Shown: piece after piece, positions 50,830 through 56,146 of the stretch
Layout of the letters: the number at the start of each line of letters is the position of its first letter
Numbering within the stretch: the stretch's first letter is position 1
Source of the DNA: an uncultured Acidobacteriia bacterium
GTDB taxonomy: Bacteria > Acidobacteriota > Terriglobia > Bryobacterales > Bryobacteraceae
Length of the DNA stretch: 64,000 nt
Assembly: GCA_903900705.1 (NCBI GenBank)
Contig: CAIUOG010000052.1
Coordinates: 1 to 64,000 of the forward strand
Reading direction: 5' to 3'
The notes under the pieces: generated by a model
The model's input: the letters and a program-made list of their open reading frames with translations, nothing else
Told to the model about the DNA's origin: nothing
The model's database searches: none
Position numbers and translations under genes: made by a program

Positions 50830-50857
50830 TTGAACAATTTAAAGGCCGGTGTATGAT
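50830..50857 (+). promoter_or_regulatory. Predicted housekeeping promoter of the lasso-like RiPP cluster
   Basis: TTGAAC (50830-50835) and TATGAT (50852-50857) are separated by 16 bases and match the -35 and -10 boxes in 4 and 5 of 6 positions. The start codon of the first cluster gene follows 32 bases after the -10 box, with GAGGAA at 50881-50886. No start site was measured. Confidence 0.55.
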
Positions 50858-50889
50858 GAGGTTTCCGTAAGGATTCATTCGAGGAACCA

Positions 50890-51552
50890 ATGATTCATAT
50901 CACGCAGGGCGGAGTGATCATAGACGATGGTGCAATAGAGAAGGCCCGGCTTGAGTACGAGCAGACAGGCCTCGCGATGCTCCCTCGCTTTCTGACTCCA
51001 CCGCTGCTCAATGCGCTGCTGGCCAAGGTTGATGTGGGGGAGTTCCGACACAAGACGGAACAGTACATCAAGGGTGCGACGTTGCTGATGCCCCTGTCCG
51101 ATCCTGCTCTGGTTACTCTGCACTTCATGGTGAACCGTCCGGAACTTTTTGACGCGGTATCCCGAATCACGGGAGTGCCAAAGCCGGGGAACTTCACCAG
51201 TCGGCTGCATCGCACGATGCCAGCGGAAGATCTGCATCTCGACTGGCACGATGACGGCCTGGACTACCGCACTCTCGGCTTGAATATTAACCTGAGCTCC
51301 GTGCCGTACGAAGGGGGTATCCTCGAGATGAGAAGCCCTGACCATACCGTTGTGGGGTCTGTTGGCCAGTTGCCCGCCGGCGATGCCTTCCTCTTTCGCA
51401 TCGGCAATGGCTGGCAGCACCGCCTGACGCCGGTCCGGTCAGGACATCGGACAGTGGCCGTGGGGTGGTTCCGGACCAGGCCGGACTGGAATGACGTTGC
51501 GCTCGCCGGTATTCGGGGATCGGCTATTGATTTGGCAGTATGGGGTGAGTGA
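50890..51552 (+). CDS. 2-oxoglutarate/Fe(II)-dependent oxygenase of the RiPP cluster
   Basis: 220 residues. The double-stranded beta-helix iron site is visible: HxD is His120-x-Asp122 in DWHDDG, the distal His is His177 in GWQHRLTP, and Arg187 ten residues later can bind 2-oxoglutarate. Strands NINLSSVPYEGGILEMR and AFLFRIGNGW lie between. It probably hydroxylates a residue of the precursor peptide or its mature form. In lasso clusters such as canucin, a related enzyme beta-hydroxylates the ring Asp. It starts after a good Shine-Dalgarno (GAGGAA) and overlaps the PqqD-like gene by one base (TGATG). Confidence 0.75.
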   Translation: MIHITQGGVIIDDGAIEKARLEYEQTGLAMLPRFLTPPLLNALLAKVDVGEFRHKTEQYIKGATLLMPLSDPALVTLHFMVNRPELFDAVSRITGVPKPGNFTSRLHRTMPAEDLHLDWHDDGLDYRTLGLNINLSSVPYEGGILEMRSPDHTVVGSVGQLPAGDAFLFRIGNGWQHRLTPVRSGHRTVAVGWFRTRPDWNDVALAGIRGSAIDLAVWGE

Positions 51553-51833
51553 TGAATCAGGCAGAACAGAAAAACATTCAGATCGGTGACACCGTCATTT
51601 ACCAGAAGTTAAAGGAAGAGGTTGTTCTCCTCAACATCGAGAGTCAGCGCTATTACGGACTGGACGATGTCGGTTCCGCCATGTGGGACGCCATCCTGAA
51701 GTATGGCGATGTGGAGTCGGCCGCGGCTGTGCTGGAAAAGATGTATGACGTGGATGGTGCGGTCCTTCGCGCTGATCTGGCTGTTTTCCTCAGGGAATTG
51801 TCGGCGGCAGGTCTCTTGACGACCGCGGCGTGA
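51552..51833 (+). CDS. PqqD-family RiPP recognition protein (lasso B1-like)
   Basis: 93 residues of a stand-alone RiPP recognition element: VIYQKLKEEVVLLNIESQRYYGLDDVGSAMWDAI is the PqqD wing-helix pattern, followed by a C-terminal helical part (ADLAVFLRELSAAGLL). Such proteins bind the leader peptide and present it to the maturation enzymes. GTG 51549 is also possible, but ATG 51552 gives the usual TGATG overlap with the oxygenase stop. The precursor gene follows 151 bases downstream. Confidence 0.85.
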   Translation: MNQAEQKNIQIGDTVIYQKLKEEVVLLNIESQRYYGLDDVGSAMWDAILKYGDVESAAAVLEKMYDVDGAVLRADLAVFLRELSAAGLLTTAA

Positions 51834-51984
51834 ACGGTTTTTGTCTGATCGGAATCGTACTGTTGTAGAACAAACAATCCACCGTTCCGCTGTGTTGCTT
51901 ATTGATCTGGCAAACAAAGACTGCTAAGCTTTTGGGGTAAAGGTTTTTTTTATAGAGCCTCGCTTCAGCCGGAGGGACAGAAAA

Positions 51985-52152
51985 ATGACAGATAACAATA
52001 CGAATTTTACCGCCAGTGAAGGCGCGGAACAGGCAGAATCCCGCCGTCCTTACCACGCACCGAAAGTTGTGAGTCTGGGAGAAATCCATGCTCTCGTCAT
52101 GGCCGGACATTGCGGCTGCGGCGATGCCGGTGTAGCCTGCACGGCTTCCTAA
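51985..52152 (+). CDS. Lasso-peptide-like RiPP precursor, 55 residues
   Basis: An open frame of 55 codons with a strong GGAGG 9 bases before ATG 51985. The leader holds YHAPKVVSLG (residues 23-32), which fits the lasso leader rule Y-xx-P-x-(L/V)-xxx-G. Counting on from Gly32, the residue at the usual Thr place is Val38, so the core would start at Ala40: AGHCGCGDAGVACTAS. Asp47 is then residue 8, allowing an 8-residue ring; if the core starts at Gly41 the ring would have 7. The core has three Cys (43, 45, 52) and ends in Ser55. Lasso precursors usually have Thr at -2 and Gly at 1, so this one is atypical. It is too short to appear in most gene calls. Confidence 0.75.
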   Translation: MTDNNTNFTASEGAEQAESRRPYHAPKVVSLGEIHALVMAGHCGCGDAGVACTAS

Positions 52153-52204
52153 CTTCCTTTTGTGTGTTTGGTGACACCCGAGTGGTGCCGATTCCGGGCC
52201 GCTA

Positions 52205-53968
52205 ATGGGTTTGTTTTGGGGGACAGCGCTCCCTTCTGATGCTAACCCTGAAAATGGGCCGCAAGCCTCTGGCGGTGGCCTTCAGGGGACTGTTTTCTCT
52301 TCGCATCTTGCTCCAAACTGCTTTCTTTCGGGCAGTTTCAGGCTTCATAACCGAGGATCGATCGCTTCGATCCTCGGGATTTCCTCCCCCGCAGAGCAAG
52401 CTTCTCTCTCCGATTCCGAGTTGGTTCTCCTTCTCTACCGCAGTCGTGGTGTTGACTGCGTTCTTTCCCTCGAAGGCGAATTTGCATTTGCCTTGTGGGA
52501 TGGAGATCGAAACCGTCTTTTCTGTGGTCGAGACCACATGGGTGTCGGGCGGTTTTATTATGCTGCCACGCCTCGGGCCTTTCACTTCGCCAGTTCTCCC
52601 GTTGAGATTCTTCGCAACTGTGCGGGCCTTGAACGCCGGCTCAATCGAAAGAAGCTGGCGGCGATGGCTATCCCTCGCGGGCACAATTTCTTTGATGAGC
52701 AGACCTTTCACGAGGGCATTTTGTCCCTTCGCCCCGGTTCAACGCTGATCGCAGATGGGCGTGGAATCCGCACCCAGGTCTATTGGAAACCTGAGATCAG
52801 ACCCGAACTGGTGCCGCAAGCGGATGATGAGGCATTCTCCCAACTCCGCGAACTCCTTTTGAGGGCTGTCGGAAACAGTCTGCGCGGGGCTGAGCGACCT
52901 TGTGTGCAACTGAGCGGCGGCCTGGATTCATCGGCAGTGACCGGCATCGCCGCCCACCTGCTACAGCAAAGCAGCCAGCGACTTCTCGCGTTGGCGGCCG
53001 TACTTCCCGAAGAAACACGAAATCGTTTTTCGGACGAACGGGATTGGATTGAGGAATTCCGAGCCGTACCAAATCTCGACATCCGGTTCGTAACAGCGGC
53101 GGGTCGAGGTCCGTTTGATCTGATCGACGATCCCGGGAACTATGAGCACACGTTTCTGCGCGGAGTGGTTTTCTATCTGGATGACGCGATGGAAGATGAA
53201 GCCCGGGACGCCGGTGCGGATCTTGCTCTGGACGGCATGGGGGGAGAATTCGGAGTGACCACGTTCGCCAGGGGTTACGCACTCGAACTGCTGTCGACAC
53301 TCCGCATCGCACCTGCGATCCGGCTTCTGCGGGAATGCCGTGCGGTTACCGGCGTGTCGCCTGTCCGGGTACTTGGCCGGGAGTTGCTAAGTCAGATGTT
53401 TCCGCTATGGGGGCGAAGACCGCTGGTGTACCTGACGGCGGAATTCCAGCGTGAATGTGAAGCTCGGCCCATTCAGCCGCGTTTCTGGCCCAACCATCGC
53501 CGGGAGCAAATGGAAATGCTGGCGAGCCGATTCCGAACACACGCCGCCCTCGATGGACTCCGGCAAGAATCCCCGATCCGCCACGCATCTCCCTTGCTCG
53601 ACACAAGGCTGATTGAATTCTGTCTCGCGGCCCCGGGTCATATGAAAATCCGCGAAGGTTACACGCGCTATATGATTCGCCGGGCGATGGAGGGTCTGAT
53701 TCCGGAGCGAAATCGATGGAGGGCAACAAAATGCGAGTTCTCGCCCGACTACATTGTTCGATACGCGGCTCAAATCCAGAGGGCCCGGGACTTTGTCCGG
53801 GCGATCCGGCCGAAAGACCCTGTCCGGACGGTGGTTGACGTCGATAAACTTTTGGAGCGGGTGTCTCTGCCGGAGCCCCCCCGTGTAAGCTGGGAACGAA
53901 AGATTCTGGTTCCCACAACAATTGCTTTGATCTGCTTCCTTCGCCAATTCGAGGAATTCCGGCCCTGA
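52205..53968 (+). CDS. Asparagine-synthetase-like lasso peptide cyclase (C protein)
   Basis: 587 residues in two domains. The N-terminal glutaminase-like half (ELVLLLYRSRGVDCVLSLEGEFAFALWD) lacks the catalytic Cys2, as in lasso cyclases. The C-terminal ATP-pyrophosphatase domain has the PP-loop LSGGLDSSAVTG at Ser237-Ser242 and a DGMGGEFG motif. Such enzymes adenylate the side-chain carboxylate of the acidic ring residue and form the macrolactam. It starts 52 bases after the precursor and its end overlaps the CTG start proposed for the kinase-like gene. A role as an amide-forming enzyme on another RiPP class is possible. Confidence 0.82.
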   Translation: MGLFWGTALPSDANPENGPQASGGGLQGTVFSSHLAPNCFLSGSFRLHNRGSIASILGISSPAEQASLSDSELVLLLYRSRGVDCVLSLEGEFAFALWDGDRNRLFCGRDHMGVGRFYYAATPRAFHFASSPVEILRNCAGLERRLNRKKLAAMAIPRGHNFFDEQTFHEGILSLRPGSTLIADGRGIRTQVYWKPEIRPELVPQADDEAFSQLRELLLRAVGNSLRGAERPCVQLSGGLDSSAVTGIAAHLLQQSSQRLLALAAVLPEETRNRFSDERDWIEEFRAVPNLDIRFVTAAGRGPFDLIDDPGNYEHTFLRGVVFYLDDAMEDEARDAGADLALDGMGGEFGVTTFARGYALELLSTLRIAPAIRLLRECRAVTGVSPVRVLGRELLSQMFPLWGRRPLVYLTAEFQRECEARPIQPRFWPNHRREQMEMLASRFRTHAALDGLRQESPIRHASPLLDTRLIEFCLAAPGHMKIREGYTRYMIRRAMEGLIPERNRWRATKCEFSPDYIVRYAAQIQRARDFVRAIRPKDPVRTVVDVDKLLERVSLPEPPRVSWERKILVPTTIALICFLRQFEEFRP

Positions 53969-54834
53969 CCCCAACCTTTCGATATCGCCTATACGGGATG
54001 GTTCTCGACTCCGAGTTGGAGATTGCGGGGCTAAGTCCCGCTTCCGGAGAGCCGGATGTCGTGCTGCGATATGCCGCGGTCCCCCGTCGAGACGATTATA
54101 AGGTTACGCTCCGGGAGGAGTTCGTATTCGGGAAACAGGTTGGTTTTCACATCCGGGATGGCCGAGAGATTCTGATTGATGTTCAGCCGGGTGCGTCGAG
54201 CGCGGCCATTCGGGTGTTTTTGCTGGGACGGGTGATGGCATTTCTGCTGCGGCAACGCGGTTGGCTTCCGCTGCACGCGAGCGGAGTCTCGGTGGGCGGT
54301 CGCGGTGTCCTGTTCGTGGCTCCGTCGGGTTCCGGTAAGTCAACCATGGCGACAGCGTTTCATCTCCATGGGCATACGGTCATTACAGATGATGTCGGCG
54401 CGGTCCGCATCGACAATGGCGTCGGAGTGGTGCAGACGGGTCGGGCACGGGTCCGCCTGATGCCTGATTCCGGAGAGCTGCTCCGGAATCAGATTGTGCC
54501 GGGTGGGTTTGAGCTGGACAAACATAGTTATCAGTTGCATGATCCCGACAACGACCGAAGCATACCGATCGCGAGCATTTACGTCCTCGAAACCGGCGCT
54601 GAGGCAGGAACTCACTCGTTGAGTCCCGTTCTTGCCACCGCGCTGCTCAATCGTCACTCCTTTATTAAGAGGAAGCGATCGGAGCCGGAGTTGCTGGCAG
54701 CGCAGTTCAGCCAATGCGCGGAAATCTGCCAGGCAGTTCCAGTACGGCGGCTCGTACGGACAGACTCGTTGTCCGGGCTTAATGATGTTGTGGCAATGGT
54801 GGAACGGGAAATTGTGGCCAACCCTGCCACTTAG
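53965..54834 (+). CDS. HPr-kinase-like protein of the RiPP cluster (lasso peptide kinase-like)
   Basis: About 289 residues from CTG 53965 (278 from ATG 53998). An HPr-kinase-type P-loop APSGSGKST and the adjacent LHASGVSVGGRGVLF fit the HprK C-terminal domain, with VITDDVGAVRI as the expected Asp-containing strand. Homologues in lasso clusters phosphorylate the C-terminal Ser of the precursor, as known for paeninodin; this precursor ends in Ser. CTG 53965 is favoured because GAGGAA sits 8 bases upstream and the added TFRYRLYG is the usual N-terminal strand of the family, whereas ATG 53998 has no Shine-Dalgarno. No standard start lies between. Confidence 0.72.
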   Translation: MTPTFRYRLYGMVLDSELEIAGLSPASGEPDVVLRYAAVPRRDDYKVTLREEFVFGKQVGFHIRDGREILIDVQPGASSAAIRVFLLGRVMAFLLRQRGWLPLHASGVSVGGRGVLFVAPSGSGKSTMATAFHLHGHTVITDDVGAVRIDNGVGVVQTGRARVRLMPDSGELLRNQIVPGGFELDKHSYQLHDPDNDRSIPIASIYVLETGAEAGTHSLSPVLATALLNRHSFIKRKRSEPELLAAQFSQCAEICQAVPVRRLVRTDSLSGLNDVVAMVEREIVANPAT

Positions 54835-55030: not shown

Positions 55031-56146
55031 ATGATGCTTCGCTATCTACAAATCTCGATTCTTATTGGTGCTGGAGTGGCAACCCTGAACGCAGGTCAGA
55101 TCCAGCTCTCAGGCACTGGCCCTGTTAATAACAACGTCGCTGGTTTCGGCCTCACGGGCACGACCGCATCGGCAAACCCTGGGCAGTATGTCCAACCCGT
55201 CGGCAGCAACAATTGCGCCGGACTGCAATATAACAGTGCGCCCTGCGCCAATGCGCTGGCCACCAACGTGACCAAAGGGAACTACATCACGGCCCTGTTT
55301 GCTGGCGCGACCGGAATGATCGCGGTGCCGGATGCCGCCCAGAACTCCCCGTCCTCCTCCGGTATGATCACCTCGAGCCTGATCGGTGCCGATGGCACCG
55401 CCATTAGCTTCGATCTGATGAACGCACCGAACCAGGCGGGTGGTTACAGCGGCAGCAGCACCTGTTCAAATTGTGCTGACGCCAATTTCTGGAAGAGCAA
55501 CAATGCCAATGCCGACCTGATTATCGCTGTCGGCCTGAACAACATCGCGTCGGTTTCGACGATGCTGCAGGACTACTATGGCGCAGTTGGGACTTCGAAC
55601 GTCAATATCGCATTTTGCTTTTCGACCACCTCGAACGGTTCCTGCGATGTAGCCCGGACTTCACTGACGCTGGTTGATGGCACTCAGATTCGTGCCGGTG
55701 TCGTCTGCAACCCACTGGTGACTGGAAGCTGCCCCACTGGTACGGGTGCCTCCTCGGTATCGGTCGACAGCTTGGCCTCCACATCCACCATCGGGACCAC
55801 GACGATCAATACCGCACAGGTTTTCAGTTCGTCCTACACCTCGATTCCGACTACGCTCCCGACCGGTGCCACTAACCTGAGCCCCTGGAAGGGCAGCACG
55901 GGCGGTTCGGTGGTTTTGGACGCTCAGCAGTTCCTGTTTAGCGGGCTTGCGAGTTCCACCTACCTTTCGTACATCGAAATAACGGATCCGAACAATATTA
56001 ACTACGCCTCTTCTTCGGTGCTGGGCAGCCACTATGCTCTCTCGGCCGTGACAATCGATCAGGCTCCGGAGCCGGCTTCCATCCTCCTCATCCTGTCTGG
56101 TCTGGGTGTGGTCGGAATTGCCCGCCGTCGCCGCGCTGTTCGCTAG
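55031..56146 (+). CDS. PEP-CTERM sorted exported protein
   Basis: 371 residues. A signal peptide (LRYLQISILIGAGVATLNAG) is followed by a Ser/Thr/Asn/Gly-rich body with many Ala-Thr stretches. The C-terminus has the classical PEP-CTERM signal: APEPASILLILSGLGVVGIARRRR, that is a Pro-Glu-Pro motif, a transmembrane helix and a basic tail. Exosortase elsewhere would cut it and anchor it to the envelope or extracellular matrix. A good Shine-Dalgarno (GGAGGA) precedes it, and a strong intrinsic terminator follows 24 bases after its stop. Not obviously part of the RiPP cluster. Confidence 0.85.
   Translation: MMLRYLQISILIGAGVATLNAGQIQLSGTGPVNNNVAGFGLTGTTASANPGQYVQPVGSNNCAGLQYNSAPCANALATNVTKGNYITALFAGATGMIAVPDAAQNSPSSSGMITSSLIGADGTAISFDLMNAPNQAGGYSGSSTCSNCADANFWKSNNANADLIIAVGLNNIASVSTMLQDYYGAVGTSNVNIAFCFSTTSNGSCDVARTSLTLVDGTQIRAGVVCNPLVTGSCPTGTGASSVSVDSLASTSTIGTTTINTAQVFSSSYTSIPTTLPTGATNLSPWKGSTGGSVVLDAQQFLFSGLASSTYLSYIEITDPNNINYASSSVLGSHYALSAVTIDQAPEPASILLILSGLGVVGIARRRRAVR

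Follow-up and report, generated by a model that had tools for sequence, protein, structure and literature searches.

How could a set of genes that resembles a lasso peptide pathway work when it does not encode the expected leader peptidase? The question is raised by a row of five genes in a 64,000-nucleotide stretch of DNA (the window) from an uncultured Acidobacteriia bacterium of the family Bryobacteraceae, GenBank assembly GCA_903900705.1. The window lies on contig CAIUOG010000052.1 (C52), which is 70,343 bp long; the genome is 6.1 Mb and 99.87% complete. The row occupies 50890-54834 on the plus strand, is operon-like, and encodes an oxygenase, a leader-binding protein (B1), a precursor peptide (A), a cyclase (C) and a kinase (K). 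The locus is classed as a variant within the paeninodin-like lasso kind: its leader peptidase is unlinked, and its product probably bears both a hydroxyl and a phosphate. We lean, with a little more than even confidence, towards a split and doubly tailored lasso pathway in which a remote leader peptidase (B2) would be used, both groups would be added, and the ring would be closed between Ala1 and Asp8. The features of the locus are as follows.

50830-50857, plus strand: promoter-like site TTGAAC-N16-TATGAT, 32 bp 5' of the oxygenase start (pattern scan, 9 of 12 matches)
50890-51552, plus strand: 2-oxoglutarate (2OG)-Fe(II) oxygenase, 220 aa (Pfam PF13640, 2OG-FeII_Oxy_3, E 5.7e-7)
51549-51833, plus strand: B1, stand-alone PqqD-type leader-binding (RRE) protein (PF05402 9.4e-16; NF033536 1.1e-12)
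51985-52152, plus strand: precursor peptide A, 55 aa (from its sequence, leader spacing and a shuffle test)
52205-53968, plus strand: lasso-type macrolactam cyclase C, 587 aa (Asn_synthase 1e-23 plus GATase_7; NCBIfam lasso cyclase 9.9e-77)
53998-54834, plus strand: HprK-like kinase K, 278 aa counted from ATG (HprK profiles E 5e-5 to 1e-9, under cut-offs)

The first-pass annotation described five such genes on one strand with short gaps, and this is confirmed by open reading frame (ORF) coordinates and by Pfam and NCBIfam profiles. Pfam cut-offs are passed by 2OG-FeII_Oxy_3, PqqD, Asn_synthase and GATase_7; Hpr_kinase_C, at 5.5e-5, is under its cut-off. The best NCBIfam matches are the lasso PqqD chaperone (1.1e-12), lasso cyclase (9.9e-77) and HprK-related kinase A (1.1e-9). 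The B1 of the lasso set, a PqqD-type RRE protein, is present; it exceeds the Pfam cut-off and misses the NCBIfam one, and its nearest solved relative is TbiB1 (3.8e-9). It starts at GTG 51549, overlapping the oxygenase stop by 4 bp, or alternatively at ATG 51552. A housekeeping-type promoter had also been proposed. The site is indeed present, but sites of the TTGAAC/TATGAT type number three in the 64-kb window against a mean of 1.9 in shuffles, which is not above chance.

A PF13471 search finds no B2 on C52. Its single match in the genome lies at C135:12176-12652, on another contig and at least 27 kb away. This protein scores 65.7 bits against an NCBIfam lasso_biosyn_B2 cut-off of 33, and its Cys85 and His119 are intact. 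The missing B2 had been overlooked when the cluster was first described. There being no local B2, a self-contained cluster is ruled out. A B2 hidden past the contig end is likewise ruled out: the cluster ends 15.5 kb before the end of C52, and the B2 sits 12.2 kb inside the 43,968-bp C135. Because it has no B2, the locus is filed as a variant, one that probably works like a lasso pathway, and not as a canonical member. No B1 or kinase match is found in the 20 kb read around the C135 B2.

In the host family, PF13471 matches 31 of 150 genomes, 30 of them above the cut-off. The 34 B2 places inspected out of 35 (one under the cut-off was omitted; the stretches vary in length and some reach contig ends) comprise 30 with B1 or kinase matches nearby, two with a cyclase-profile match only (L202 and L204), and two lone genes, those of the host and of genome G023 (L189). 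A lone B2 is unusual in the host family; B2 as such is not. A recurrent precursor type adjoins B2 in six host-family loci (L186, L191, L192, L194, L195 and L202), with B1 adjoining in five of the six. It has the form YxxPxL...G(K/D)A or GD.., followed by Ile or Val at -2, a G-x-D-(I/V/F/L)-D-G core and an acidic tail.

Unlinked B2 genes recur in other genomes. Among the matches listed from the cyclase search, which are not a random sample, eight other loci have B1, cyclase and kinase matches and no B2 nearby (L039, L090, L092, L098, L103, L114, L141 and L144; the B1 match of L144 is weak, 2e-10). In G037, Sulfidibacter corallicola, G545 and G544 the remote B2 sits in a second cluster with B1, cyclase and kinase matches; in S. 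corallicola this B2 is 3.8 Mb from the B2-less locus. It is lone in three genomes: Ancylobacter dichloromethanicus, a Pseudomonadales metagenome-assembled genome, and Sphingomonas mali, where it is one of two B2 genes. L090, L092, L098, L141 and L144 have leader-like precursors with a terminal Ser, and no precursor is recognisable in L039, L103 or L114. The genes of L039 (G037:C44) are packed together, and the second cluster of G037, with its B2, is L070. L090 (JAJDYJ010000007.1, the Pseudomonadales genome) has several Ser-ending precursors with a WxxP leader, two kinases and one cyclase; a lone B2 apparently shares its contig, at a distance of about 27 kb. It is a tentative idea that, in several phyla, B2 is unlinked, possibly shared, and serves remote B1-cyclase-kinase loci, to which the window locus would add a dedicated oxygenase family and a hydroxylated, phosphorylated lasso with a plugless tail held by a disulfide and a phosphate.

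These loci also bear on whether a B2 is used at all. An unrelated peptidase might remove the leader, or the cyclase might need no leader removal by B2; the lone B2 would then serve something else. Pseudomycoidin, from a kinase-bearing lasso cluster, is reportedly made without leader and leader peptidase, to judge by a title cited in PMC9266682. LPP peptides combine an RRE and an HprK-like kinase with a signal-peptidase-like protease, according to the accessible part of PMC13381572. L039 is likewise a B1-cyclase-kinase locus without a nearby B2. However, all eight of the other genomes with B2-less loci have PF13471 matches elsewhere (though 31 of the 150 family genomes do anyway), and position -2 of the window leader is hydrophobic, as in the B2 substrate BsfA. 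A lasso made without B2 is considered unlikely.

The cyclase retains an SGGLDSS ATP site, has no Cys2, and has a shortened and divergent N-terminal glutaminase domain. The predicted model (predicted local distance difference test, pLDDT, 75.9) has matches to a hydroxyamidotransferase as well as to beta-lactam, carbapenam and asparagine synthetases. Given its PF00733 and GATase_7 domains and the resemblance of the model to AsnB and beta-lactam synthetase, the protein could be read as an ordinary asparagine synthetase with unrelated neighbours. This is scarcely credible. Lasso cyclase is the best-scoring model, albeit under its curated cut-off, B1 and the precursor adjoin, and the lack of Cys2 together with the tree placement rules out an asparagine synthetase identity. 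By a simple pattern, Cys2 is lacking in 55 of 56 cyclases of loci with B1 and B2, and present in 29 of the 41 that come from loci lacking B1 and kinase.

The cyclase tree was built with 76 of the 112 proteins. Loci with B1 and B2 contribute 40 of their 56, loci without B1 contribute 25 of their 45, and loci with B1 and no B2 contribute all eight; the host's own two synthetases and the window cyclase complete the set. L087 was excluded beforehand as a copy of L047, with which it agrees in length and scores. The window cyclase is one of 45 rows on its side of the tree (support 98), made up of 34 with B1 and B2, four with B1 only, six without B1, and itself. It also lies inside a set of 14 (support 97), with seven, three and three rows of these kinds besides itself. 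A clade of 21 asparagine-synthetase-like rows (support 100) includes the host's own two synthetases. The split is not clean, as six of the 40 rows with B1 and B2 and four of the eight with B1 only lie across the drawn root, beside that clade; and since the window branch is long, its exact place is unsure. Nevertheless, the tree parts the window cyclase from the Cys2-bearing synthetases, host's own included, and the initial description of a cyclase without Cys2 that is not a true asparagine synthetase holds. At the limits used, cyclase matches occur in six of 150 family and nine of 396 phylum genomes, host counted, and the others are at most 33% identical. In a scan of genome contigs, whose counts are a sample (the best 80 of 506 relatives), the best segment is 37% identical. 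No close relative was found among these 150 family genomes, 396 phylum genomes and best 80 of 506 contig-scan relatives.

The coordinates of the 55-residue precursor proposed earlier are confirmed, and a GGAGGG ribosome site precedes its gene. Aligned by eye with other candidate precursors, the leader has Tyr at -17, Pro at -14, Val at -12, Gly at -8 and Val at -2. From this alignment the core is predicted to be AGHCGCGDAGVACTAS, with Asp at position 8, a C-terminal Ser16, and a ring from Ala1 to Asp8. The lasso leader motif YxxPx(L/V/I) is present with the correct spacing to the core. The precursor alone matches this motif among 438 window ORFs of 30-100 aa, against 0.02 expected in shuffles, the motif having been loosened to admit Val at -2 after the window ORF had been seen. 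The usual lasso Thr is not present at this position; Ile or Val at -2 has been described for Acidobacteriaceae (PMC10368454, accessible part). Given a core start at Ala, Asp8 supplies the acidic residue at core 7-9. A phmmer search of the fetched loci with the precursor gives a sole match, L048 (E 0.008), and no true homologue. The expectation that the precursor would be conserved beside such genes is borne out only in design: precursors of the same design adjoin the same genes elsewhere, but none of those fetched is a true homologue.

Gly, Cys and His abound in the core, and none of the residues of its predicted tail, AGVACTAS, is a bulky plug. Such a peptide might instead be a non-lasso product of B1, cyclase and kinase, either an unthreaded branched cyclic peptide or a Cys-rich peptide bound by disulfides or metal; kinship with lasso cyclases is no proof of threading. 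We think this improbable in view of that same kinship and the spacing from leader to Asp. A disulfide would also suit a lasso: according to the accessible part of PMC9266682, lasso peptides of classes III and IV carry a single disulfide, and such bonds are described as vital to the topology of classes I, III and IV. In the predicted core, Cys13 may pair with Cys4 or Cys6.

The oxygenase has His120, Asp122 and His177, which we take from the family to be the Fe ligands, and Arg187, which presumably binds 2OG. The triad is invariant in all five homologues; Arg187 is replaced by Lys in one. The predicted model (pLDDT 84.6) is matched by Foldseek to 2OG oxygenases, prolyl hydroxylases among them, and the protein is a probable precursor hydroxylase. 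At E 1e-10 its family is found in one of the 150 host-family genomes, the host itself, as a single match. The locus was probably acquired, since the oxygenase is confined to its own genome within this family.

Matches beyond the family are few. A phylum search finds the oxygenase in four of 396 genomes, namely the host, G308 (two copies), G300 and G434, and a class search in two of 148, G434 and G560. In G434 (L180) the oxygenase overlaps the cyclase gene, and a precursor, kinase, methyltransferase and B1 follow; a B2, identified by its profile match (3.2e-25), is 1.7 kb from B1 on the opposite strand. In G308 (L178, G308:C70), where the contig is only 5.1 kb long, B1 and an ABC transporter are directly followed by two tandem oxygenases; perhaps these paralogues make two hydroxylations on one lasso-like peptide. 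The homologue in G560 reaches the contig end, and no lasso gene is visible there. None of the 104 other fetched loci has a window-type oxygenase (63 loci of a slightly larger set have a cyclase match with B1 or kinase), and a five-sequence oxygenase profile recovers only its own members in 115 loci. The pairing of oxygenase and kinase in lasso-type loci recurs, yet it is rare: two lasso-type clusters in the phylum carry both, those of the window and of G434. The remark in the first-pass annotation that having both tailoring genes in one locus is unusual is well founded.

The kinase has His93, Lys114, Ser115, Asp131 and Asp132, residues shared by 12 relatives (one has Glu in place of Asp131), and these include the His-Lys-Asp-Asp catalytic set of PadeK-type lasso kinases (His93, Lys114, Asp131 and Asp132). 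The precursor ends in CTAS, and a Ser end fits a kinase of this type. Ser-ending candidates make up 24 of 48 distinct precursors at loci with kinase matches and two of eight at loci without, false candidates included. The protein is a probable C-terminal-Ser kinase. Its frame is open 5' of the ATG, where it encodes FRYRLYG. As this resembles the YxxYG N-termini of relatives, the annotated start is probably too late; the true start would be at a non-standard upstream codon, possibly a CTG overlapping the cyclase stop. The suggestion of a lasso-like peptide with both a hydroxyl and a phosphate stands as far as the genes go: the locus is of the lasso type and encodes a probable hydroxylase together with what is probably a C-terminal-Ser kinase; the chemistry (hydroxyl, phosphate, threading) is not demonstrable from sequence.

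We infer an order of steps, a ring, two modification sites, threading and use of the remote B2 as follows. B1 would bind the precursor leader through Tyr -17, Pro -14 and Val -12. While the precursor is linear, the oxygenase would hydroxylate one core residue and the kinase would phosphorylate Ser16. Tailoring is placed before B2 cleavage and ring closure because a linear precursor is the substrate of known lasso kinases and of the hydroxylase CanE; B1 aids both CanE and BsfK (PMC9266682 and PMC10368454, accessible parts). Asp8 is a candidate hydroxylation site, because the G434 core also has an Asp at a ring position. B1 would then pass the precursor to the remote B2 cysteine protease on C135, which would cut after Met -1. 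The cyclase would activate Asp8 and join it to the amine of Ala1, giving an eight-residue ring and an eight-residue tail. As the tail has no bulky plug, a disulfide from Cys13 to Cys4 or Cys6, perhaps with the phosphate, would hold it.

The cluster might also be decaying or incompletely transferred, having lost B2 and a transporter, with a divergent cyclase that no longer makes a lasso. The lack of a local B2 and of a visible transporter, the absence of the oxygenase from the 149 other family genomes and the long cyclase branch all suit this idea. So does G+C content, which is 53-59% at the cluster and mostly 59-65% around it, though the dip (about 49.5-56 kb) is wider than the cluster. Decay is nevertheless distinctly unlikely. 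The five reading frames are all open and tightly packed, the checked catalytic residues of the oxygenase, the cyclase ATP site and the kinase are kept, and the genome has a lone intact B2. It should be noted that these rival explanations overlap with each other and with the favoured pathway, and their probabilities need not total one.

Several observations weigh against the split, doubly tailored pathway. B1, cyclase and kinase all score under the curated NCBIfam cut-offs, and profile scans find no transporter among the five cluster genes and three neighbours. The cyclase has diverged, with identities in A1 of no more than 30%, a tree branch of 2.24 and a shortened N-terminus, and has Glu348 (GGE) where 11 of 13 relatives have Asp (GGD). 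As B2 occurs in 31 of 150 family genomes anyway, its presence in the host is weak evidence of pairing, and this background also weakens the count of eight out of eight. The B2 of G548 is at a contig end and L103 starts at one, and these may be assembly-broken neighbours. The sole cyclase-profile match near the C135 B2, 6.8 kb off, is a Cys2-bearing synthetase and not a lasso cyclase. In G300 the oxygenase homologue has no lasso gene in the 18 kb around it. No orthologous cluster was found in the genomes and loci searched, so conservation offers no check on this precursor or this set of genes.

Some further features of the surroundings and the genome were recorded. A PEP-CTERM protein is encoded at window positions 55031-56146, on the same strand and 196 bp 3' of the kinase. 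At L039:5829-6644 in G037, 6 bp 5' of the B1, is an ORF whose end is PEP-CTERM-like; the two neighbours are probably a coincidence. The host genome has a second set resembling those for ribosomally synthesised and post-translationally modified peptides on contig C151 (G000:C151, L012:4014-6171), with PqqD-profile and HprK-profile matches side by side, a gene that by eye resembles radical SAM, and a nucleotidyltransferase-like ORF on the opposite strand. Its PqqD match was rejected as part of the window pathway; it adjoins the HprK-profile match and the apparent radical SAM gene, and seems to belong to another system. Distant B1 relatives are found in seven plasmid records, and none in viral contigs.

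Compared with known systems, the window locus is closest in kind to the paeninodin type (PadeA/B1/B2/C/K). It shares B1, cyclase, an HprK-like kinase with His-Lys-Asp-Asp, the leader motif and a C-terminal Ser (PMC9266682, accessible part), as well as the acidic residue at core 7-9. It differs in having no B2, an oxygenase, Val for the usual Thr at -2, and a Cys-rich core without a bulky tail residue. With the Bradymonas bsf cluster (BsfA/B1/B2/C/K/N) it shares Tyr -17, Pro -14, an aliphatic residue at -12, a hydrophobic one at -2 (Ile in bsf, Val here) and a kinase. However, BsfK phosphorylates Ser3, where the window core has His3, and bsf has B2, a nucleotidyltransferase and a transporter, with no oxygenase mentioned in the accessible part of PMC10368454. 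The Fe/2OG facial triad of CanE-type hydroxylases is matched by His120, Asp122 and His177; the hydroxylation target in canucin A is a C-terminal Asp, which the window core does not have, and the accessible part of the source mentions no kinase for canucin. LPP loci share a discrete RRE, an HprK-like kinase and the lack of B2, but a lasso cyclase is missing from the conserved gene set of LPP loci in the accessible part of PMC13381572; with its lasso-type cyclase, the window locus is not an LPP cluster. The G434 cluster shares a homologous oxygenase (32% identity) that overlaps the cyclase gene, a YxxP precursor, a kinase and B1; it differs in its Thr -2 precursor, extra methyltransferase and B2-profile match. 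Each part is known. The combination of oxygenase and kinase in one lasso cluster, and an unlinked B2, were not found in the open-licence literature searched.

Lasso mining usually seeks B1, B2 and C together, and loci like this one could be called incomplete or overlooked. If the favoured reading is true, a lone B2 that acts for a distant locus would parallel, among lasso peptides, the unclustered proteases of lanthipeptides (PMC8960859, accessible part). An oxygenase and a kinase acting on one 16-residue core would show whether B1 serves three or four enzymes per precursor, and the system would show whether a phosphate or a disulfide can substitute for bulky plugs.

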